NCBI GenBank assembly: GCA_003562195.1
Contig: PWVT01000298.1
Location: forward strand, 1 to 32,212
Length of the DNA stretch: 32,212 bases
Reading direction: 5' to 3'
From: Phycisphaeraceae bacterium
Lineage (GTDB): Bacteria > Planctomycetota > Phycisphaerae > Phycisphaerales > SM1A02
The stretch's first letter is position 1; the number at the start of each line of letters is the position of its first letter. The notes under the pieces were generated by a model. It was not told where the DNA came from. It did no database searches and saw only the letters and a list, made by a program, of their open reading frames with translations. The translations under genes were made by a program, and so were the position numbers. Below, piece after piece: positions 1,308 to 32,212 of the stretch.

Positions 1308-3737
1308 CTAAAACGGAAGTTCCGCGCTGAAACTCAGCACCTGGGTCTCGTCGCCACGTTCCTTGAGAATCGGGAAGCCAAGGTCGAAGGCGATGGGCAC
1401 CGGCCCGAATTGCGGAATGTAAAGCCGAACGCCCGTCCCGATCGAAACACGATAGTCATCGAAGCCCACGCTGTCCGTCACCGTACCGGTATCAATAAAC
1501 ACGACACCGGTCACCTGCTCACCGAACAGCGGAAACTCGTACTGCGCACCGGCAAAGAACATCCATTCCCCACCGATCGGATCGTTGCTTGGTTCGCCCG
1601 TATCGTTGCGAATGCCTTTCGGGCTGACTTCGCGGAAGCGAAATCCGCGGAATGTTCGACCACCACGGTAGTAGCGTTCATACGTTGGAGCACGGCCCCC
1701 GAAGATATACCCCGCCTCCGTGTTCAGCCGCAAGGTTGAGCGTCTGCCGAGGAAGTCCTCCGTTACTGTCAGGAACACGGTGTACTCGGCTCCGATATTG
1801 TTGAAGCCGTAATCGCCGCCGAACGCACCAATGCGATCGTACGACATCTGGAAACGACTGCCGCGACCGGGGCGGGTGATTGTGGTGACTGTCGAACGAG
1901 TGAAGGTCATCCCCAACGCCGTGAGCAGGTCGGGACCGGCATCACGAAACAGCTCCGATGGCGCAAAGGGTGCGATGCTGGTCAACTCGACATGCTCGAC
2001 ACGCGAACGCACGCCGACACTCCAGACATCACCAAGCCGACGGCTGAGACCGGCATTCGCAGTCAGCCGTTCCTCGTCGTATCGACGGAAGAACCGCTGT
2101 TGGTACGAGCCGCCGAGATTGAGTGAATACTCCGAATCAAGCAGATGCGGCTCGGTAAAATTGATGGCGTATTGGAAAATCTCATTGCCAGGGCGAAACG
2201 CCATGGAGAATCGTTGGCCAGCTCCACGAAAGGCACGGCCTCGAAGAAGATCACCGATGGATGCAGGGGTGTCGGCGATATCGAAGTTGTCCTGTCGCAG
2301 TGAGATTTCACCGAAAAGCCCAGAGTCCGAACCCACGGCCACGCCGAAATTGACTGAGCCAGTATTCCGCTCGCGCACTTCAACCAGGATATCGCGGACT
2401 TCTGAGTCATCATCTTCAATGTCCGACTCTCGCGGTGGCTGTGCTGTGATTCGAACATCGCCGAACAGTCTCGTATCTGCGATGCGCCGTCGTGTGCGCT
2501 CAAGCTCTGTCGCGTCCAGTGGGCGACCGGGTTGCAGACGCACATGCCTCCGAATCACGCGATCACGCGTCAGGAAATTGCCTTGGACATCGACCAGTCC
2601 CACGCGAGTCGGGCGACCTTCGTCAATTTCCATCAGCAAGTCGACTTGTGCTTCTCCAGGGACGTGTAACTCAATGATTTCAACACGTTGCCGTCGCTGC
2701 ACCGGGTAATAGCCAAGCCGCCCGTAGGCCTCCTCTACGGCCTCAACAGAGCGGCGGAGTCGGTCACGCGAATAGACATCGCCGGGCCGAATATCGAGCA
2801 ACGCGGCAATCTGTTCTGCTGCGAACACGCGCAACGGTTCACCATCAACCAGTCTGGCCGTGCGAACGCTTCGCAAGGTGTACAGCGGTCCCTCATCAAT
2901 GAGAAACGTCACCGCAGCTTCGCCATGGTCTGGTGAAAGCTGAACGTGCCGATCCACACGCACCTCAAGATACCCGCGATCGCGGTAGTAGGAGGAAATG
3001 GCCGATACGTCTTCGATCAGACGATCTTCGTCAAGCTCACCACGCCGCAACGCCAGAATCGCTGTTCTGGTGGAGATTTCCCGATGCAGCAGGCGATCTT
3101 CAAATGCTTCATTGCCTTGAAACTCGATGGAGCGAATCCGGACGCGTGGGCCTTCGATGATTCGGAAGATCAGTATGCCGGATTGCTCAAGTTCAGAATC
3201 GTCAACGAGTACCGTGGCAAGATAGTGGCCACGTTCTCGATATGCCGTCTGAATCGAGCGCACTGCGTGTTGCACAAGGTAGTCATCGCGCGGGCTGCCG
3301 CGCATCAATCGTACGACTGCGAGCAGATCCTGATCGGAGATCAAGGTGTTGCCGACAACCTGGATTTCGGCGATCAGGGGCTGTTCGACCACCTGGAAGA
3401 TGACGCGGACCGTGCCATCGTCAAGCACTTCCGCCTCTGCTGTAATAGTGGCAAAGCGACCGAGCTGATCCAACCGGGCGACATCATCGCGAATCGTTTG
3501 CTCACTATATGCTTGTCCGACAGCAGTTCGTATATTGTTCAGCACCAATTGTTGGGGCACCTGCTGCAGCCCGTGGACAGTGACGTCGGAGATTGGCCGA
3601 TCGACAAGATCCGCGTCGGGTGCCGGTTGTGAGTATGCATTGGTCACACACACAAGCACCGCAAAGATGACGAGGAGGTGTACAACGCCGGGCAAGCGAT
3701 GAACTGCGCAAATAGTGGCAGGTGTGTGCAGCGCCAT
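1308..3737 (-). CDS. bamA: Outer membrane protein assembly factor BamA (POTRA repeats plus Omp85 barrel)
   Basis: 809 aa with signal peptide, repeated POTRA-like segments (e.g. 'EGPRVRIRSIEFQGNEAFEDRLL', 'RVGLVDVQGNFLTRDRVIRRHVRLQPGRPLD') and a C-terminal surface-antigen barrel ('YYRGGRTFRGFRFREVSPKG', 'FIDTGTV', 'GTGVRLYIPQFGPVPIAFDLGFPI'). Confidence 0.93.
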   Translation of the reverse strand: MALHTPATICAVHRLPGVVHLLVIFAVLVCVTNAYSQPAPDADLVDRPISDVTVHGLQQVPQQLVLNNIRTAVGQAYSEQTIRDDVARLDQLGRFATITAEAEVLDDGTVRVIFQVVEQPLIAEIQVVGNTLISDQDLLAVVRLMRGSPRDDYLVQHAVRSIQTAYRERGHYLATVLVDDSELEQSGILIFRIIEGPRVRIRSIEFQGNEAFEDRLLHREISTRTAILALRRGELDEDRLIEDVSAISSYYRDRGYLEVRVDRHVQLSPDHGEAAVTFLIDEGPLYTLRSVRTARLVDGEPLRVFAAEQIAALLDIRPGDVYSRDRLRRSVEAVEEAYGRLGYYPVQRRQRVEIIELHVPGEAQVDLLMEIDEGRPTRVGLVDVQGNFLTRDRVIRRHVRLQPGRPLDATELERTRRRIADTRLFGDVRITAQPPRESDIEDDDSEVRDILVEVRERNTGSVNFGVAVGSDSGLFGEISLRQDNFDIADTPASIGDLLRGRAFRGAGQRFSMAFRPGNEIFQYAINFTEPHLLDSEYSLNLGGSYQQRFFRRYDEERLTANAGLSRRLGDVWSVGVRSRVEHVELTSIAPFAPSELFRDAGPDLLTALGMTFTRSTVTTITRPGRGSRFQMSYDRIGAFGGDYGFNNIGAEYTVFLTVTEDFLGRRSTLRLNTEAGYIFGGRAPTYERYYRGGRTFRGFRFREVSPKGIRNDTGEPSNDPIGGEWMFFAGAQYEFPLFGEQVTGVVFIDTGTVTDSVGFDDYRVSIGTGVRLYIPQFGPVPIAFDLGFPILKERGDETQVLSFSAELPF

Positions 3738-3786
3738 GAGAATCCGGGAGCATACCGGCGGGATGCAGAGTCAACAAGGCGAATGC

Positions 3787-3794
3787 GTTTCGTG
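3787..3794. repeat. Left copy of an 8-bp target-site duplication (GTTTCGTG) flanking palindromic element copy 1
   Basis: GTTTCGTG at 3787-3794 is repeated exactly at 3893-3900, abutting both ends of the inverted-repeat element. Confidence 0.8.
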
Positions 3795-3892
3795 GGTACT
3801 GGTACAGTTTGAAAGTGGAACAGGCCTCTGGCCTGTAGATACGTTCCTCAGGCGGGACGCCTGTGCCACCGGATTCAAACTGTACCAGTACG
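3795..3892 (+). mobile_element. MITE-like non-autonomous palindromic element, copy 1 (98 bp)
   Basis: Ends GGTACTGGTACAGTTTGAA...TTCAAACTGTACCAGTACG (18/19 bp inverted repeat). Internal hairpins ACAGGCC-TCT-GGCCTGT (3820-3836) and CAGGCG-GGA-CGCCTG (3849-3863). Flanked by 8-bp direct repeats. Homologous to the element at 30078-30176. Confidence 0.82.
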
Positions 3893-3900
3893 GTTTCGTG
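3893..3900. repeat. Right copy of 8-bp target-site duplication (GTTTCGTG), element copy 1
   Basis: Exact match to 3787-3794. Confidence 0.8.
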
Positions 3901-3945
3901 CAACCGCATGGACTTTTGCGCCGTGACACGGTTCAATGGCTGCAA

Positions 3946-5019
3946 ATGAATGTCATGTCTCTCAATGAGCTTGCTGAACGGATCGGCGCTCGCGTGCTTG
4001 GTGACGGCTCGCGGAACGTTTCTCGCTGCGCTTCGATCGAGAAAGCGGGGTCTGATGAAGTCGCATTTGTTGCCAATGCCAAGTATGCCCGTTTTCTCAA
4101 CAGCACGAAAGCCGCAGCAGTGTTGGTGGATGCGGCTGTCGCTCAAGACCCACGAACGCCGAAGTCACTGACCAAACTGGTTGCGGATGACCCGTACTTT
4201 GCCTTTCGCAATGCATTGATCGAACTCAACGGCCAGCGCACGCATCCAACACCGCTGGATGCCGATGCACAGTTTGCCGATGGCAAAATCAGCCCGCGGG
4301 CGGCGATTCATCCCGAGGCCGTTGTCGGCCGTGATACCATCATTCATCCCTTTGCCACGGTCGAACGAGGCGCACGGATTGGCAACGGGTGCGTGTTGTA
4401 TCCGGGTGCGTATGTGGGGGAAGAGGCCGTGGTCGGTGATGAGTGTCTGCTGTTTCCCAACGTGACGATCTACGACCGCTGCGTGCTCGGGAACCGCGTG
4501 ACGCTCCATTCCAGCACCGTCGTGGGGCAGGATGGATTCGGCTATGCCACGCACAAGGGCGCGCATCACAAAATTCCGCAAACAGGCATCGTGGTCATTG
4601 AAGACGATGTTGAACTCGGTGCTGGTTGCGCGATCGAACGCTCTGCGATGGGGCAGACGAGAATCGGGGCGGGAACCAAGTTTGCCGACCTGATCTCTAT
4701 TGGACATGGTTGTGACATCGGCAAGCATTGCCTTTTTGTTTCCTTTGTCGGCGTGTCCGGGTCCGTGGAAGTCGGCAACTATGTCGTGCTCGGCGGGCAA
4801 GTCGGTGTGACCGGCCACCTCAAGATCGGCGACGGAGTGCAGGCGATGGCAAGAAGTGCCATCGTGCGTGATGTCCCGGCAGGGGCCAAGGTCGGCGGAG
4901 CACCGGCCGTCCCGGCGGAGATCGCCCGGCGAAATGTCATGGCGTCAGTCGATCTGCACAAACTGGTCAAACGGGTGCGCGACTTGGAACGCCAACTCGA
5001 GATTTCGAAAACTCAATAG
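3946..5019 (+). CDS. lpxD: UDP-3-O-acylglucosamine N-acyltransferase LpxD
   Basis: MNVMSLNELAERIGARVLGDGS... is the canonical LpxD N-terminus, followed by hexapeptide (LbH) repeats ('RIGNGCVLYPGAYVGEEAVVGDECLLFPNVTIYDRCVLGNRVTLHSSTVVGQDGFGYA'). The track ORF begins at 3715 but its first 77 codons read through the palindromic element; start at 3946 or 3955 preferred. Confidence 0.93.
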   Translation: MNVMSLNELAERIGARVLGDGSRNVSRCASIEKAGSDEVAFVANAKYARFLNSTKAAAVLVDAAVAQDPRTPKSLTKLVADDPYFAFRNALIELNGQRTHPTPLDADAQFADGKISPRAAIHPEAVVGRDTIIHPFATVERGARIGNGCVLYPGAYVGEEAVVGDECLLFPNVTIYDRCVLGNRVTLHSSTVVGQDGFGYATHKGAHHKIPQTGIVVIEDDVELGAGCAIERSAMGQTRIGAGTKFADLISIGHGCDIGKHCLFVSFVGVSGSVEVGNYVVLGGQVGVTGHLKIGDGVQAMARSAIVRDVPAGAKVGGAPAVPAEIARRNVMASVDLHKLVKRVRDLERQLEISKTQ

Positions 5020-6316: not shown

Positions 6317-7879
6317 TCACTCGAATGCGCCGCGATCGACAATCTGAAAATCATGCAACGATCGCAATTCGTCTGCGCCAGCGTTACCAATCTCGTTGAA
6401 CCGGTTGATCACTGGGATCGGGCTTTCCAGAGCAAGTTCACCGAGAAGTTTGAACTTGGTTTCGAGGATGCCATGCAGATCAGCCGTGCTGTTACGGGCG
6501 TGACCGGCGGGGTACATGACCATGCCGCTGTCATAATCCTTGCCATCTGCGGTGATGACGATGGAGGTGGGGATGCCGTCGGGGTACTTCTCATCGTACT
6601 CTTGGCCGCCGTGAACGAAGGTGATCTTCTCCATCAGCGCCCGTGTTTCCGGGTGCATGATGGCGTCCGGGCCGTAGTCGTAAGGACTGAGCATCAACGT
6701 CTTCCAGAAGGCATCGGTGCCTCCATCGGTCTGCAACTGGCCGGCCTTGGCGGCTTCGACGGCTTTGCGCAGCTTGGTGGAGACGATATAGACCATGGAG
6801 TGGTCAGCACTTTGCCGGGTGCGCGGGTCGCGCTTGGCAGGGTCGCCGATGATGCCAAACGCCGGTTCATACGCGACGATCTTGATCGTCTCAATCTTCT
6901 CCGGCTGCTGCAGAATCGCAGGATTCTCAGCGATGAGGTCAATCAGGCCCTGAAGTGCACCGGCTGATTGGTGTTCATACAGCCCCAGCTTGAAGTGCAT
7001 GCCCATCACGGCAAAGTCATCACCCGAGTGTGACAGCACCAGATCAAACGGACTTTCATCATCGCTTCGCGTTGGCTCGAACTGCCGCCAGATCGCTTCG
7101 GGGTTGCGGAAGATGTCCTTCGGGCCGATGAAGCCGGCCATTGCCCGCTTCATGCACAGCACGGCTGCCTCGGTTGAGATCGCGGCTGAGGCGCCTTTGG
7201 AATCAGAAAGCTGCTTGCCGGCCCGGATCGCGCGCCAGGGGATGTAGTGCGCGACGAACATGCCGATGGCGTGTTCGATCTGCTCCGGCGTGGCGCCAAG
7301 CATCGCGCCGTACGTGGCCGCGGAACCGATGGCACCATGGACGACGTGGTCGATCTTGTATGACTTCAAGCTGAACACCTCAGCCAGACGACCGCGGATT
7401 TCATCAAGGCACACCATGCCTCGCAAGGCAAACGCGCCATCCTTGCCGCCCAGTTGGGCGGCTGCGATGGCAACAGGGTAAAAGTCATTGTGGCCGAACT
7501 CACCTGCGGTGTGTCCCAGCGCGGGGTTATAGCCGAAATTGGTGCCGTTGGAATCCCACTCGCGCACGGCTGAACTGTTGGCGACGATGGCCTTCTCCGG
7601 CACGACAGGTGTAGTTGAGCCGAGAACTGTGGCGCCGGTGTTGGCTGGATAGGTGAGCGCTTCGTTTCGTAGCAGCGTCGGGGCGTTCGTGCCGAGCGCG
7701 AGCGCCGACATGCCGCAGAGCATGCTGTCGGTGTAAAACAGCACGGTGCGGTCGAGTACTGCTTGCGACGGTTCACCGATGCTACCGGAGAGAAAATCAC
7801 AGGCAAACTTGCCGATGCCCAAGGCCTGATTGGTATCGCGGGACAGTGTCACGGACGATGTTGATGTAGTTGTGGTCAT
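6317..7879 (-). CDS. MmgE/PrpD family protein (2-methylcitrate dehydratase-like)
   Basis: '...FLSGSIGEPSQAVLDRTVLFYTDSMLCGMSALALGTNAPTLL...GATVLGS...REWDSNGTNFGYN...AGEFGHNDFYPVAIAAAQLGG...' is typical of the MmgE/PrpD fold. Preferred start MTTTTSTSSV at 7879; the track ORF extends to 8041 and would overlap the divergent kinase ORF. Confidence 0.87.
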   Translation of the reverse strand: MTTTTSTSSVTLSRDTNQALGIGKFACDFLSGSIGEPSQAVLDRTVLFYTDSMLCGMSALALGTNAPTLLRNEALTYPANTGATVLGSTTPVVPEKAIVANSSAVREWDSNGTNFGYNPALGHTAGEFGHNDFYPVAIAAAQLGGKDGAFALRGMVCLDEIRGRLAEVFSLKSYKIDHVVHGAIGSAATYGAMLGATPEQIEHAIGMFVAHYIPWRAIRAGKQLSDSKGASAAISTEAAVLCMKRAMAGFIGPKDIFRNPEAIWRQFEPTRSDDESPFDLVLSHSGDDFAVMGMHFKLGLYEHQSAGALQGLIDLIAENPAILQQPEKIETIKIVAYEPAFGIIGDPAKRDPRTRQSADHSMVYIVSTKLRKAVEAAKAGQLQTDGGTDAFWKTLMLSPYDYGPDAIMHPETRALMEKITFVHGGQEYDEKYPDGIPTSIVITADGKDYDSGMVMYPAGHARNSTADLHGILETKFKLLGELALESPIPVINRFNEIGNAGADELRSLHDFQIVDRGAFE

Positions 7880-27722: not shown

Positions 27723-30011
<2,289 letters not shown>

Positions 30012-30069: not shown

Positions 30070-30077
30070 GAACACTG
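30070..30077. repeat. Left copy of 8-bp target-site duplication (GAACACTG) flanking palindromic element copy 2
   Basis: GAACACTG at 30070-30077 is repeated exactly at 30177-30184, abutting both element ends. Confidence 0.8.
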
Positions 30078-30176
30078 GGTAGTGGATCAGTTTGAAAGTG
30101 GAACAGGCCTCTGGCCTGTTCAGACCATGTACAGGCGGGACGCCTGTGCCACCTCTATTCAAACTGACCCACTACC
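30078..30176 (+). mobile_element. MITE-like non-autonomous palindromic element, copy 2 (99 bp)
   Basis: Ends GGTAGTGGATCAGTTTGAA...TTCAAACTGACCCACTACC (18/19 bp inverted repeat). Core AGTGGAACAGGCCTCTGGCCTGT and CAGGCGGGACGCCTGTGCCACC identical to copy 1, separated by a different 12-nt spacer. Flanked by 8-bp direct repeats. Confidence 0.82.
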
Positions 30177-30184
30177 GAACACTG
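30177..30184. repeat. Right copy of 8-bp target-site duplication (GAACACTG), element copy 2
   Basis: Exact match to 30070-30077. Confidence 0.8.
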
Positions 30185-30226: not shown

Positions 30227-32212
30227 TCACCAATCCAATGGCGATCGCCATGCATTTCGAAGCGCATCGAGGGGGATGTTCGCTCCCGCGACTACCATGT
30301 TAGTTGTGTTGTTGAATTCGCCAATCACTGCATGCGGTAGATCATGAAACACTACCTGGAACTGAGCCCAATGCTCCATATTCAACTCAAGCAGATAGCG
30401 CGAAGGTGTTTCACTAAACGCGCGAGTGCAGGTGTCGCCTTCTCCAGGCACCTTGGAAAGGTCAAGTGACACACCAAGCCCGCCGGAAAACGCCATTTCA
30501 GCCGCAGCGACAAGCAGTCCGCCGTCACTGCAATCATGGGCGGAGCAGACCAATCCTGCTGTGATGGCCTGATGAACCGCCAGGGCCAGAGCCGGGCCCT
30601 GTTTTAAATCAACTTGAGGCAATGGATCATCCGAAGCGCCGTAAAGCATTTCGAAATGTGAGCCGCGCAGGGTGTCGTGTGTTTCACCGACGACGACAAG
30701 CATATTACCGGCTTGCTTCGCATCCATTGTCACGCACCGGCGTACATCCTCAACAATGCCCATGCCGGAAATCAGCAATGTCGGTGGGATCTGGATGGTG
30801 CGGCCGTCCTCGGTGGTGAACTGGTTGTTCAGTGAGTCCTTGCCGGAGATAAACGGTGTGCGATACGCCTTGGCCCCGTCGTAACACGCTTCGGCTGCGC
30901 GAACGAGCGAACCGAGATTCTCCGGCTTCTTGCAGCTCGGCCAGCAGAAATTATCCAGAATGGCGATGCGCTGCGGGTCGGCCCCGGTGCAAACCATGTT
31001 GCGCACACACTCGTCAATGGCGGCGAGGGTCATGAGATACGGGTCATCGCTGAAGCCGGTCGCCAGGCCGTTGCCGATCGCCAGACCGCGTGTGGAGCCC
31101 TCCACCGGCAGGATCACAGCAGCGTCCGACGGCCCCTGACTGTGCGTACCGACCAACGGTTTCACTACTGAATTCCCCTGGACCTCATGATCGTACTGCT
31201 GAATGATCCAGTGCTTGGATGCGATGTTTGGATGAGACAGCAACGCGACTAGCGCATCGCTGATGTTTGGTGGCGTGGAAGTGGTCGGCTCGATCGGCTG
31301 ATGACTCTTCGTGTCGAACGTCGCTTCACGAACCGACTGCGGAATCCCTTCGTGCAGGAATTGCATTGGCATGCGGCCGACCTCGGTGCCCTGATAGTTG
31401 AGGATTAGATCACGGTCAGATGTGCCGAAGTGGCCCAAATCACACATTTCCACATTATGCTTGGCACAGATCGCTGCCAGCGCATCGACGTTGTTCGATG
31501 GTACAGCGAGGACCATGCGCTCCTGGGCTTCGCTAATCCAGATTTCCGTCGGGCTGAGGCCGGCATACTTCAGTGGTGCTTTTTCAAGATGGACTTCCGC
31601 GCCGAGTTTCTCACCCATCTCGCCGACCGCGCTGGAGAAGCCTCCGGCACCGCAGTCGGTAATGGCGCTGTACAGGCATCTGCCGTCTTCGCCGGGCGTG
31701 TCGCGTGCCTCGATGATTGCATCGAGCATTTTCTTCTCGGTGACCGGATTGCCGATCTGCACTGCGTGGCTGAACTCATCAGCGTGGGTGTCGGTCAGTT
31801 CCGCGGAACTGAACGTCGCGCCATGGATGCCATCACGCCCGGTGCGACCGCCGACAGCGATGATACGATCACCCGGCCGGGCATCACCGCTGATCATGTC
31901 GCGCGGCATGACGCCGATGCAGCCGCAGTACACCAGTGGATTGCCGATGTAGTCATCGTGGAACCACACTGCGCCGTTGAGTGTGGGGATTCCCATGCGG
32001 TTGCCGTAGTCCCGAACGCCCGCAACGATCTGCTGCAAGACCCGCCGTGGGTGTAGCACGCCGGTGGGCAGGGATCGAGGGATCGAGGCATCAATAGCTT
32101 GATCCCTTGATGCCGTGTTGCCTTGTTGCCTTCCACTCAACCAATGATCCGGATACGCGACACAAAACACGTCCGTCGCCGCGATAGGCCTTGCCGCCAA
32201 ACCCGTTCCGAT
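30227..32212 (-). CDS. purL: Phosphoribosylformylglycinamidine synthase, PurL subunit/domain; N-terminus beyond window edge
   Basis: Minus frame open to the window end (IGTGLAARPIAATDVFCVAYPD...LHPRRVLQQIVAGVRDYGNRMGIPTLNGAVWFHDDY). 'PGDRIIAVGGRTGRDGIHGATFSSAEL', 'AITDCGAGGFSSAVGEMGEKLGAEVHLEKAPLKYAGLSPTEIWISEAQERMVLAVP', 'PFISGKDSLNNQF', 'AHDCSDGGLLVAAAEMAFSGGLGV'. The M at 32200 is unlikely to be the true start. Confidence 0.92.
   Translation of the reverse strand: MGTGLAARPIAATDVFCVAYPDHWLSGRQQGNTASRDQAIDASIPRSLPTGVLHPRRVLQQIVAGVRDYGNRMGIPTLNGAVWFHDDYIGNPLVYCGCIGVMPRDMISGDARPGDRIIAVGGRTGRDGIHGATFSSAELTDTHADEFSHAVQIGNPVTEKKMLDAIIEARDTPGEDGRCLYSAITDCGAGGFSSAVGEMGEKLGAEVHLEKAPLKYAGLSPTEIWISEAQERMVLAVPSNNVDALAAICAKHNVEMCDLGHFGTSDRDLILNYQGTEVGRMPMQFLHEGIPQSVREATFDTKSHQPIEPTTSTPPNISDALVALLSHPNIASKHWIIQQYDHEVQGNSVVKPLVGTHSQGPSDAAVILPVEGSTRGLAIGNGLATGFSDDPYLMTLAAIDECVRNMVCTGADPQRIAILDNFCWPSCKKPENLGSLVRAAEACYDGAKAYRTPFISGKDSLNNQFTTEDGRTIQIPPTLLISGMGIVEDVRRCVTMDAKQAGNMLVVVGETHDTLRGSHFEMLYGASDDPLPQVDLKQGPALALAVHQAITAGLVCSAHDCSDGGLLVAAAEMAFSGGLGVSLDLSKVPGEGDTCTRAFSETPSRYLLELNMEHWAQFQVVFHDLPHAVIGEFNNTTNMVVAGANIPLDALRNAWRSPLDW
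32069..32132 (-). repeat. Degenerate 8-bp tandem repeat arranged as an imperfect palindrome, inside the purL reading frame
   Basis: Minus strand: AAGGCAAC AAGGCAAC ACGGCATC AAGGGATC AAG CTATT GATGCCTC GATCCCTC GATCCCTG. Left-arm octamers and the complement of the right-arm octamers follow the same AAGGSATC/GAGGSATC pattern. Confidence 0.7.

Follow-up and report, generated by a model that had tools for sequence, protein, structure and literature searches.

REP-like hairpin pairs between IS1-type ends: a probable MITE family in a Phycisphaeraceae genome

The DNA analyzed here (the window) is a 32,212-nucleotide stretch from a Phycisphaeraceae bacterium (contig PWVT01000298.1), and it contains two copies of a short repeat whose outer arms differ in a paired fashion, raising the question of whether such arms are kept for an RNA fold or have another origin. 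Copy 2 is a 99-bp element at 30078–30176, located in the gap between a PurL-like gene (30227–32200) and a YyaL/DUF255-type gene (27723–30011), both on the minus strand. As the earlier note had described, it has its own 8-bp duplication, GAACACTG, at both flanks (30070–30077 and 30177–30184). Its terminal inverted repeats are of the A type, the left one (30078–30096, plus strand) reading GGTAGTGGATCAGTTTGAA and the right one (30158–30176) reading GGTAGTGGGTCAGTTTGAA on the minus strand. Copy 1, a 98-bp element at 3795–3892 (plus strand) with the ends GGTACTGGTACAGTTTGAA and TTCAAACTGTACCAGTACG, is flanked by a different target site duplication, GTTTCGTG (3787–3794 and 3893–3900). The comparison of the two copies made in that note was reproduced in full: the core blocks AGTGGAACAGGCCTCTGGCCTGT (30097–30119, plus strand; 3814–3836 in copy 1) and CAGGCGGGACGCCTGTGCCACC (30132–30153, minus strand) are common to both, and the 12-nt spacers are of equal length and different sequence, AGATACGTTCCT in copy 1 and TCAGACCATGTA in copy 2 (30120–30131, the subfamily A version in the subfamily alignment). 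In the arms, copy 1 has C-G at position 5, T-A at position 9 and A-T at position 10, where copy 2 has G-C, an A/C mismatch and T-A, in that order. Copy 1 occupies the gap between a BamA-like gene (1308–3737, minus strand) and an LpxD-like gene within the ORF at 3715–5019 (plus strand), and may therefore lie within a divergent promoter region.

The core consists of two GTGG-headed hairpins inverted relative to each other, the head of the second being on the minus strand, as in REPINs and BIMEs. Both halves carry the conserved tetranucleotide head and the short hairpin by which REPs are recognized, and the core is probably REP in nature. Among GTAG-tagged REPs, the tag is GTGG in most GTAG-20 elements of Opitutus terrae (PMC3733652). 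For the 23-mer AGTGGAACAGGCCTCTGGCCTGT, the expected number of matches in shuffled sequences is 0. The alternative long-hairpin fold of the core, noticed earlier, is present and is the MFE structure (about −60 kcal/mol, z about −8.8); taken with the arms, it gives −59.9 and −62.8 kcal/mol (z −8.8 and −10.3) over the two strands. Core halves without the ends are found in related genomes, including the second hairpin alone, and in the genome CSMAG_386, with only a few in the host genome of the window (G000), where nearly all such hairpins lie within an end-bounded element. Genes with PF01797 (Y1) domains are present in all seven genomes searched, G000 included; in G060, inverted GTGGCACGGGCATCCTGCCCGTGC palindromes lie on both sides of a Y1_Tnp-containing stretch, and no matching hairpin was found close to the two PF01797 loci of G000.

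As a separate observation, the valyl-tRNA synthetase of two genomes, G001 and G060, from two Phycisphaerae-related genera contains an in-frame IS200-like Y1 transposase domain (PF01797) in its middle part (L256, 1–3204, plus strand; L255, 1–3204, minus strand). In the synthetase of G060, inverted GTGG palindromes stand on either side of the Y1 domain, and the open frame continues through them. A RAYT has apparently been domesticated or tolerated within an essential gene.

The host genome is a MAG of 2.75 Mb in 306 contigs, 79% complete, and a genome-wide search recovered about 36 copies of the element. These are non-coding, 98–99 bp in length, with terminal inverted repeats (arms) of 18–19 bp, and fall into two subfamilies. 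Subfamily A has 15 copies, mostly of 99 bp, with the ends GGTAGTGGATCAGTTTGAA and GGTAGTGGGTCAGTTTGAG, and includes copy 2, with ...GAA at its right end; subfamily B has about 20 copies, mostly of 98 bp, with the ends GGTACTGGTACAGTTTGAA and CGTACTGGTACAGTTTGAA, and includes copy 1. The 8-bp target site duplication is found family-wide: at least six of the eight positions match at 27 of the 38 candidate places, perfectly at 17, whereas six or more match in only 0.36% of cases in a control with flanks exchanged between copies, and identity at the ninth flanking base is down to background, all of which supports a duplication of exactly 8 bp. Of 29 empty sites, 11 fall within ORFs of 150 aa or more, compared with 85% of random positions, and the copies are therefore mostly intergenic. 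Two copies, L018 (C83) and L040 (C88), combine an A end with an opposite B end, mispaired arms and a perfect 8-bp duplication; in L040, the junction between the two halves appears to lie within the hairpins. When the B end was searched phylum-wide in 392 genomes, many copies were found in G000 only, and the other matches inspected were single sites without a MITE.

The same ends bound much larger, transposase-bearing elements. On the Mesorhizobium loti plasmid p_1, a 3370-bp element bounded by GGTAGTGGGTCAGTTTGA, with the perfect 8-bp duplication CGCTGGTG, carries an annotated IS1 family transposase; the left arm of copy 2 matches 17 of the 18 letters of GGTAGTGGGTCAGTTTGA, and in an end comparison the first 18 letters of its right arm, read as above, are identical to both ends of the plasmid element. 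Annotated IS1 transposases are likewise carried by a 4224-bp element of a Hoeflea plasmid (near-identical ends GGTAGTGTCTCAGTTTGA, perfect duplication GATGATTG) and a 2634-bp element of an Acidiphilium plasmid (GGTAGTGTCTCAGTTTGA, one end GGTAATG..., perfect duplication AAGCCGAG), and a Methylocapsa element has A-type ends with unequal flanks. Eight viral-contig elements of 1.9–4.3 kb (L130, L135, L139, L147, L229, L233, L238 and L248) have this type of transposase between facing A-type ends and are flanked by perfect 8-bp duplications; 13 further elements bounded in the same way, 153–1958 bp long, have no detectable transposase. The A-type end GGTAGTGGRTCAGTTTGA (18 bp) matches at least 120 stretches in viral contigs, which suggests that phages, or mobile DNA that was mis-binned, carry a large and little-described group of IS1-type transposons. 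Proteins from complete plasmids that are about 50% identical to the viral-contig transposase are annotated as IS1 family transposases. Given that the transposase scores below the curated cut-off of the NCBIfam IS1 model (NF033558; E 1.5e-15, 57.6 bits against 100), and that the scores against Pfam PF03400 (DDE_Tnp_IS1) are near the cut-off (23.9 and 26.5 bits against 24.1), these enzymes form a divergent IS1 branch. Eight-bp duplications are common to the plasmid, viral and MAG elements, and target duplications in the IS1 family are 8–9 bp long.

The exact B-type end, GGTACTGGTACAGTTTGAA, is also found in viral contigs, beside the same type of transposase and methylase genes. In L119, genes for an IS1-like transposase and an N6-methylase lie between two facing B ends, the element's own duplication being unconfirmed at the right end because the two ends carry different flanks; in L116, the exact B end lies just past a transposase fragment and a methylase. 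A transposase is linked to the B end in few cases, fewer than for the A end, and in a transposase tree with only three B rows, A and B ends were not resolved by clade. Methylase genes adjoin the transposase in these viral-contig transposons (N6_Mtase in L119, N6_N4_Mtase in L116). On another viral contig, L141, a 200-bp element (6963–7162) with A-type IS1 ends and the perfect 8-bp duplication GATCAAGG contains a tRNA-Asp gene (7014–7089, minus strand).

Because the ends match those of transposase-bearing transposons letter for letter, the elements in the window are very probably IS1-type MITEs, A and B tracking two end specificities. The family has the features of such elements: it is short and non-coding, with terminal inverted repeats, its dispersed copies carry duplications, and an autonomous transposon has the same ends. 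The IS1-type transposase would be encoded elsewhere, having been lost, being missing from the assembly or being brought in by phages or plasmids, and would act in trans, binding both ends, inserting the element and duplicating 8 bp. Two subfamilies would exist because the two end types (GGTAGTGG... and GGTACTGG...) match two kinds of autonomous transposon, and since both arms must suit the enzyme, the arms of one copy would differ together. The inverted REP-like hairpin pair in the interior would be carried as passive cargo. Copies probably exchange halves through its palindromes, and this would account for the same core standing behind different ends. Relatives of the viral-contig transposase were not found in G000, G067 and three other MITE-bearing MAGs, all incomplete and fragmented and searched without a positive control. 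A PF03400 search of G000 gave no match either, a result of little weight because even proteins closely related to the right transposase reach no more than the cut-off with this profile. In the literature searched, which lay mostly outside subscription journals, no description of IS1-type MITEs with REP cores was found.

The surprise came from comparing genomes: foldback cores lie between the same ends in three Phycisphaerae genomes, with different REP stems and loops, as well as in another planctomycete and a Bacteroidota MAG; the MITE-bearing relatives with names are Phycisphaerae. CSMAG_386 has about 25–30 copies with the same ends and the core GGGGAGCATCGGCCTCTGGCCGGT...ACCGGCGGGACGCCGATGCTCCCC, and in G067, which matches PMV_1.43, related ends enclose five or more different REP-like cores. 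The planctomycete WB-IL-13 has a core of the TCATTCTGAG...GAAGAATCTCG type between B-type ends, with A-type ends in one copy, and a Chitinophagaceae MAG has about 40 copies of an ACCGC...AAGACGC-type core with the same ends. At a fixed boundary, 13 of the 30 copies from CSMAG_386 and 10 of the 30 from the Chitinophagaceae MAG have perfect 8-bp duplications, with more when a one-base shift is allowed. It is conceivable, though we regard it as doubtful, that IS1-type MITEs of several phyla systematically enclose host palindromic repeats, with ends and cores exchanging freely; the enclosed repeats are REP pairs in Phycisphaerae, TCATTCTGAG...GAAGAATCTCG in another planctomycete and ACCGC...AAGACGC in Bacteroidota.

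The presence of unrelated foldback cores behind the same ends in G000, G067, CSMAG_386, WB-IL-13 and the Chitinophagaceae MAG also favors a reading in which the hairpin core is needed for transposition or maintenance, for example by joining the ends or insulating sites, and has hence been selected in every lineage. Between lineages, the stems differ (ACAGGC/GCCTGT, ACGGGC/GCCCGT and TCGGC/GCCGA) and loops such as TCT and GGGAC recur (GGCC-TCT-GGCC, GGC-GGGAC-GCC); judged by inspection and not by statistics, these would be the only paired changes beyond those between A and B. Against such a requirement stand small viral-contig elements with the same ends and interiors that are not REP-like, one of them with the tRNA-Asp gene, the lack of covariation within families (below) and an ascertainment effect, as searches with palindromic relatives or a single end sequence were what led to the genome elements. 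A required core is unlikely, and it is a refinement of the MITE explanation rather than an alternative to MITE identity.

The earlier note had read the paired changes of the outer stem as a sign of structure, or of hairpin-templated correction of the ends, and had proposed a covariation test on all copies. The paired differences turn out to be fixed differences between subfamilies A and B, and within families, double changes are not clearly above shuffles. None was found within A (11 distinct sequences) and one within B (19 distinct; shuffle mean 0.1; 40 of 300 shuffles as high), and most single changes in A and B break pairs. CSMAG_386 (26 rows) gave two double changes (shuffle mean 1.0; 73 of 300 as high) and the Chitinophagaceae MAG (26 rows) four (shuffle mean 2.2; 43 of 300 as high). 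Pooling A and B produced the sole set exceeding the shuffles, with 22 cells in three pairs, and nearly all of this signal is essentially one difference between two founders. Persistent mismatches and the two mixed-end copies speak against templated correction: the A-C mismatch at 9/9' is retained in 13 of 14 A copies and the G-G mismatch at 1/1' in 12 of 18 B copies, whereas correction would remove them. Either the mixed ends can be mobilized or the exchange occurred after insertion, and arm complementarity at these positions is therefore not required. A simpler reason for the matching arms is that the terminal inverted repeats of the two subfamilies belong to different IS1-type transposons.

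It is very unlikely that the element is kept for its fold, as a structured RNA, an RNA processing site or a terminator located downstream of purL. The very stable hairpin on both strands (z about −8.8 to −10.3), the position between purL and yyaL, both read from the minus strand, and the rarity of copies in genes would suit such a role. However, a terminator/promoter scan gave nothing, with no T run and no terminator-like match, an Rfam scan gave no match, covariation within families is lacking, copies sit at unrelated loci with duplications, and any MITE whose core is palindromic would be expected to fold back. A further reading, a REPIN/BIME-type element mobilized by a RAYT (a single-strand Y1 transposase) with the outer arms merely as its extension, would fit the inverted GTGG-headed hairpins, the PF01797 genes in every genome searched, the palindromes bracketing the Y1_Tnp stretch of G060 and the solo halves in related genomes and CSMAG_386, but it is highly improbable in view of the 8-bp duplications (IS200/IS605-type Y1 enzymes are not known to make any), the confinement of nearly all such G000 hairpins to end-bounded elements, the ends shared with IS1-transposase elements and the two G000 PF01797 loci with no such hairpin close by.

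With the IS1-type MITE as the preferred explanation, the element can be placed among known systems. The divergent single-ORF branch of the IS1 family, annotated by NCBI as 'IS1 family transposase' on Mesorhizobium, Hoeflea and Acidiphilium plasmids, has identical or nearly identical terminal repeats (GGTAGTG...TCAGTTTGA) and the same 8-bp target duplication, but its plasmid transposons are about 2–4 kb long with cargo genes, whereas the element is 98–99 bp long and lacks the transposase gene. Bacterial MITEs such as RUP, NEMIS/Correia and Nezha are alike in shortness, lack of coding, terminal inverted repeats, duplication, copy numbers in the tens and strong foldback; in contrast to them, the element has IS1-type ends and an inverted REP-like pair as interior, which is replaced by other palindromic repeats in other genomes. 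REPINs and BIMEs mobilized by RAYTs share the inverted GTGG-headed hairpin pair, the variable spacer and the long-hairpin alternative, but not the enclosing DDE-transposon ends with an 8-bp duplication (PMC3116915, PMC2817692). TIRtrons and TIRYT repeats also combine terminal repeats with REP-type biology, but they flank tyrosine (Y1) transposase genes, whereas the repeats of the element match IS1-type transposons; degenerate GTAG-1 units joined to unrelated stem-loops have been described as well (PMC3733652).

The finding supplies a transposon source for an abundant family of short palindromic repeats in uncultured Planctomycetota, and it illustrates that paired arm changes in a repeat can stem from transposase specificity instead of RNA structure. 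If the enclosure of host palindromes is systematic, common intergenic palindromes would owe part of their spread to a DDE transposase that acts on borrowed ends, with the foldback core aiding mobility or tolerance. With the repeated joining of an IS1-type end to a REP-like pair, the hitch-hiking of REPs on a DDE transposase, besides their movement by RAYTs, becomes testable.
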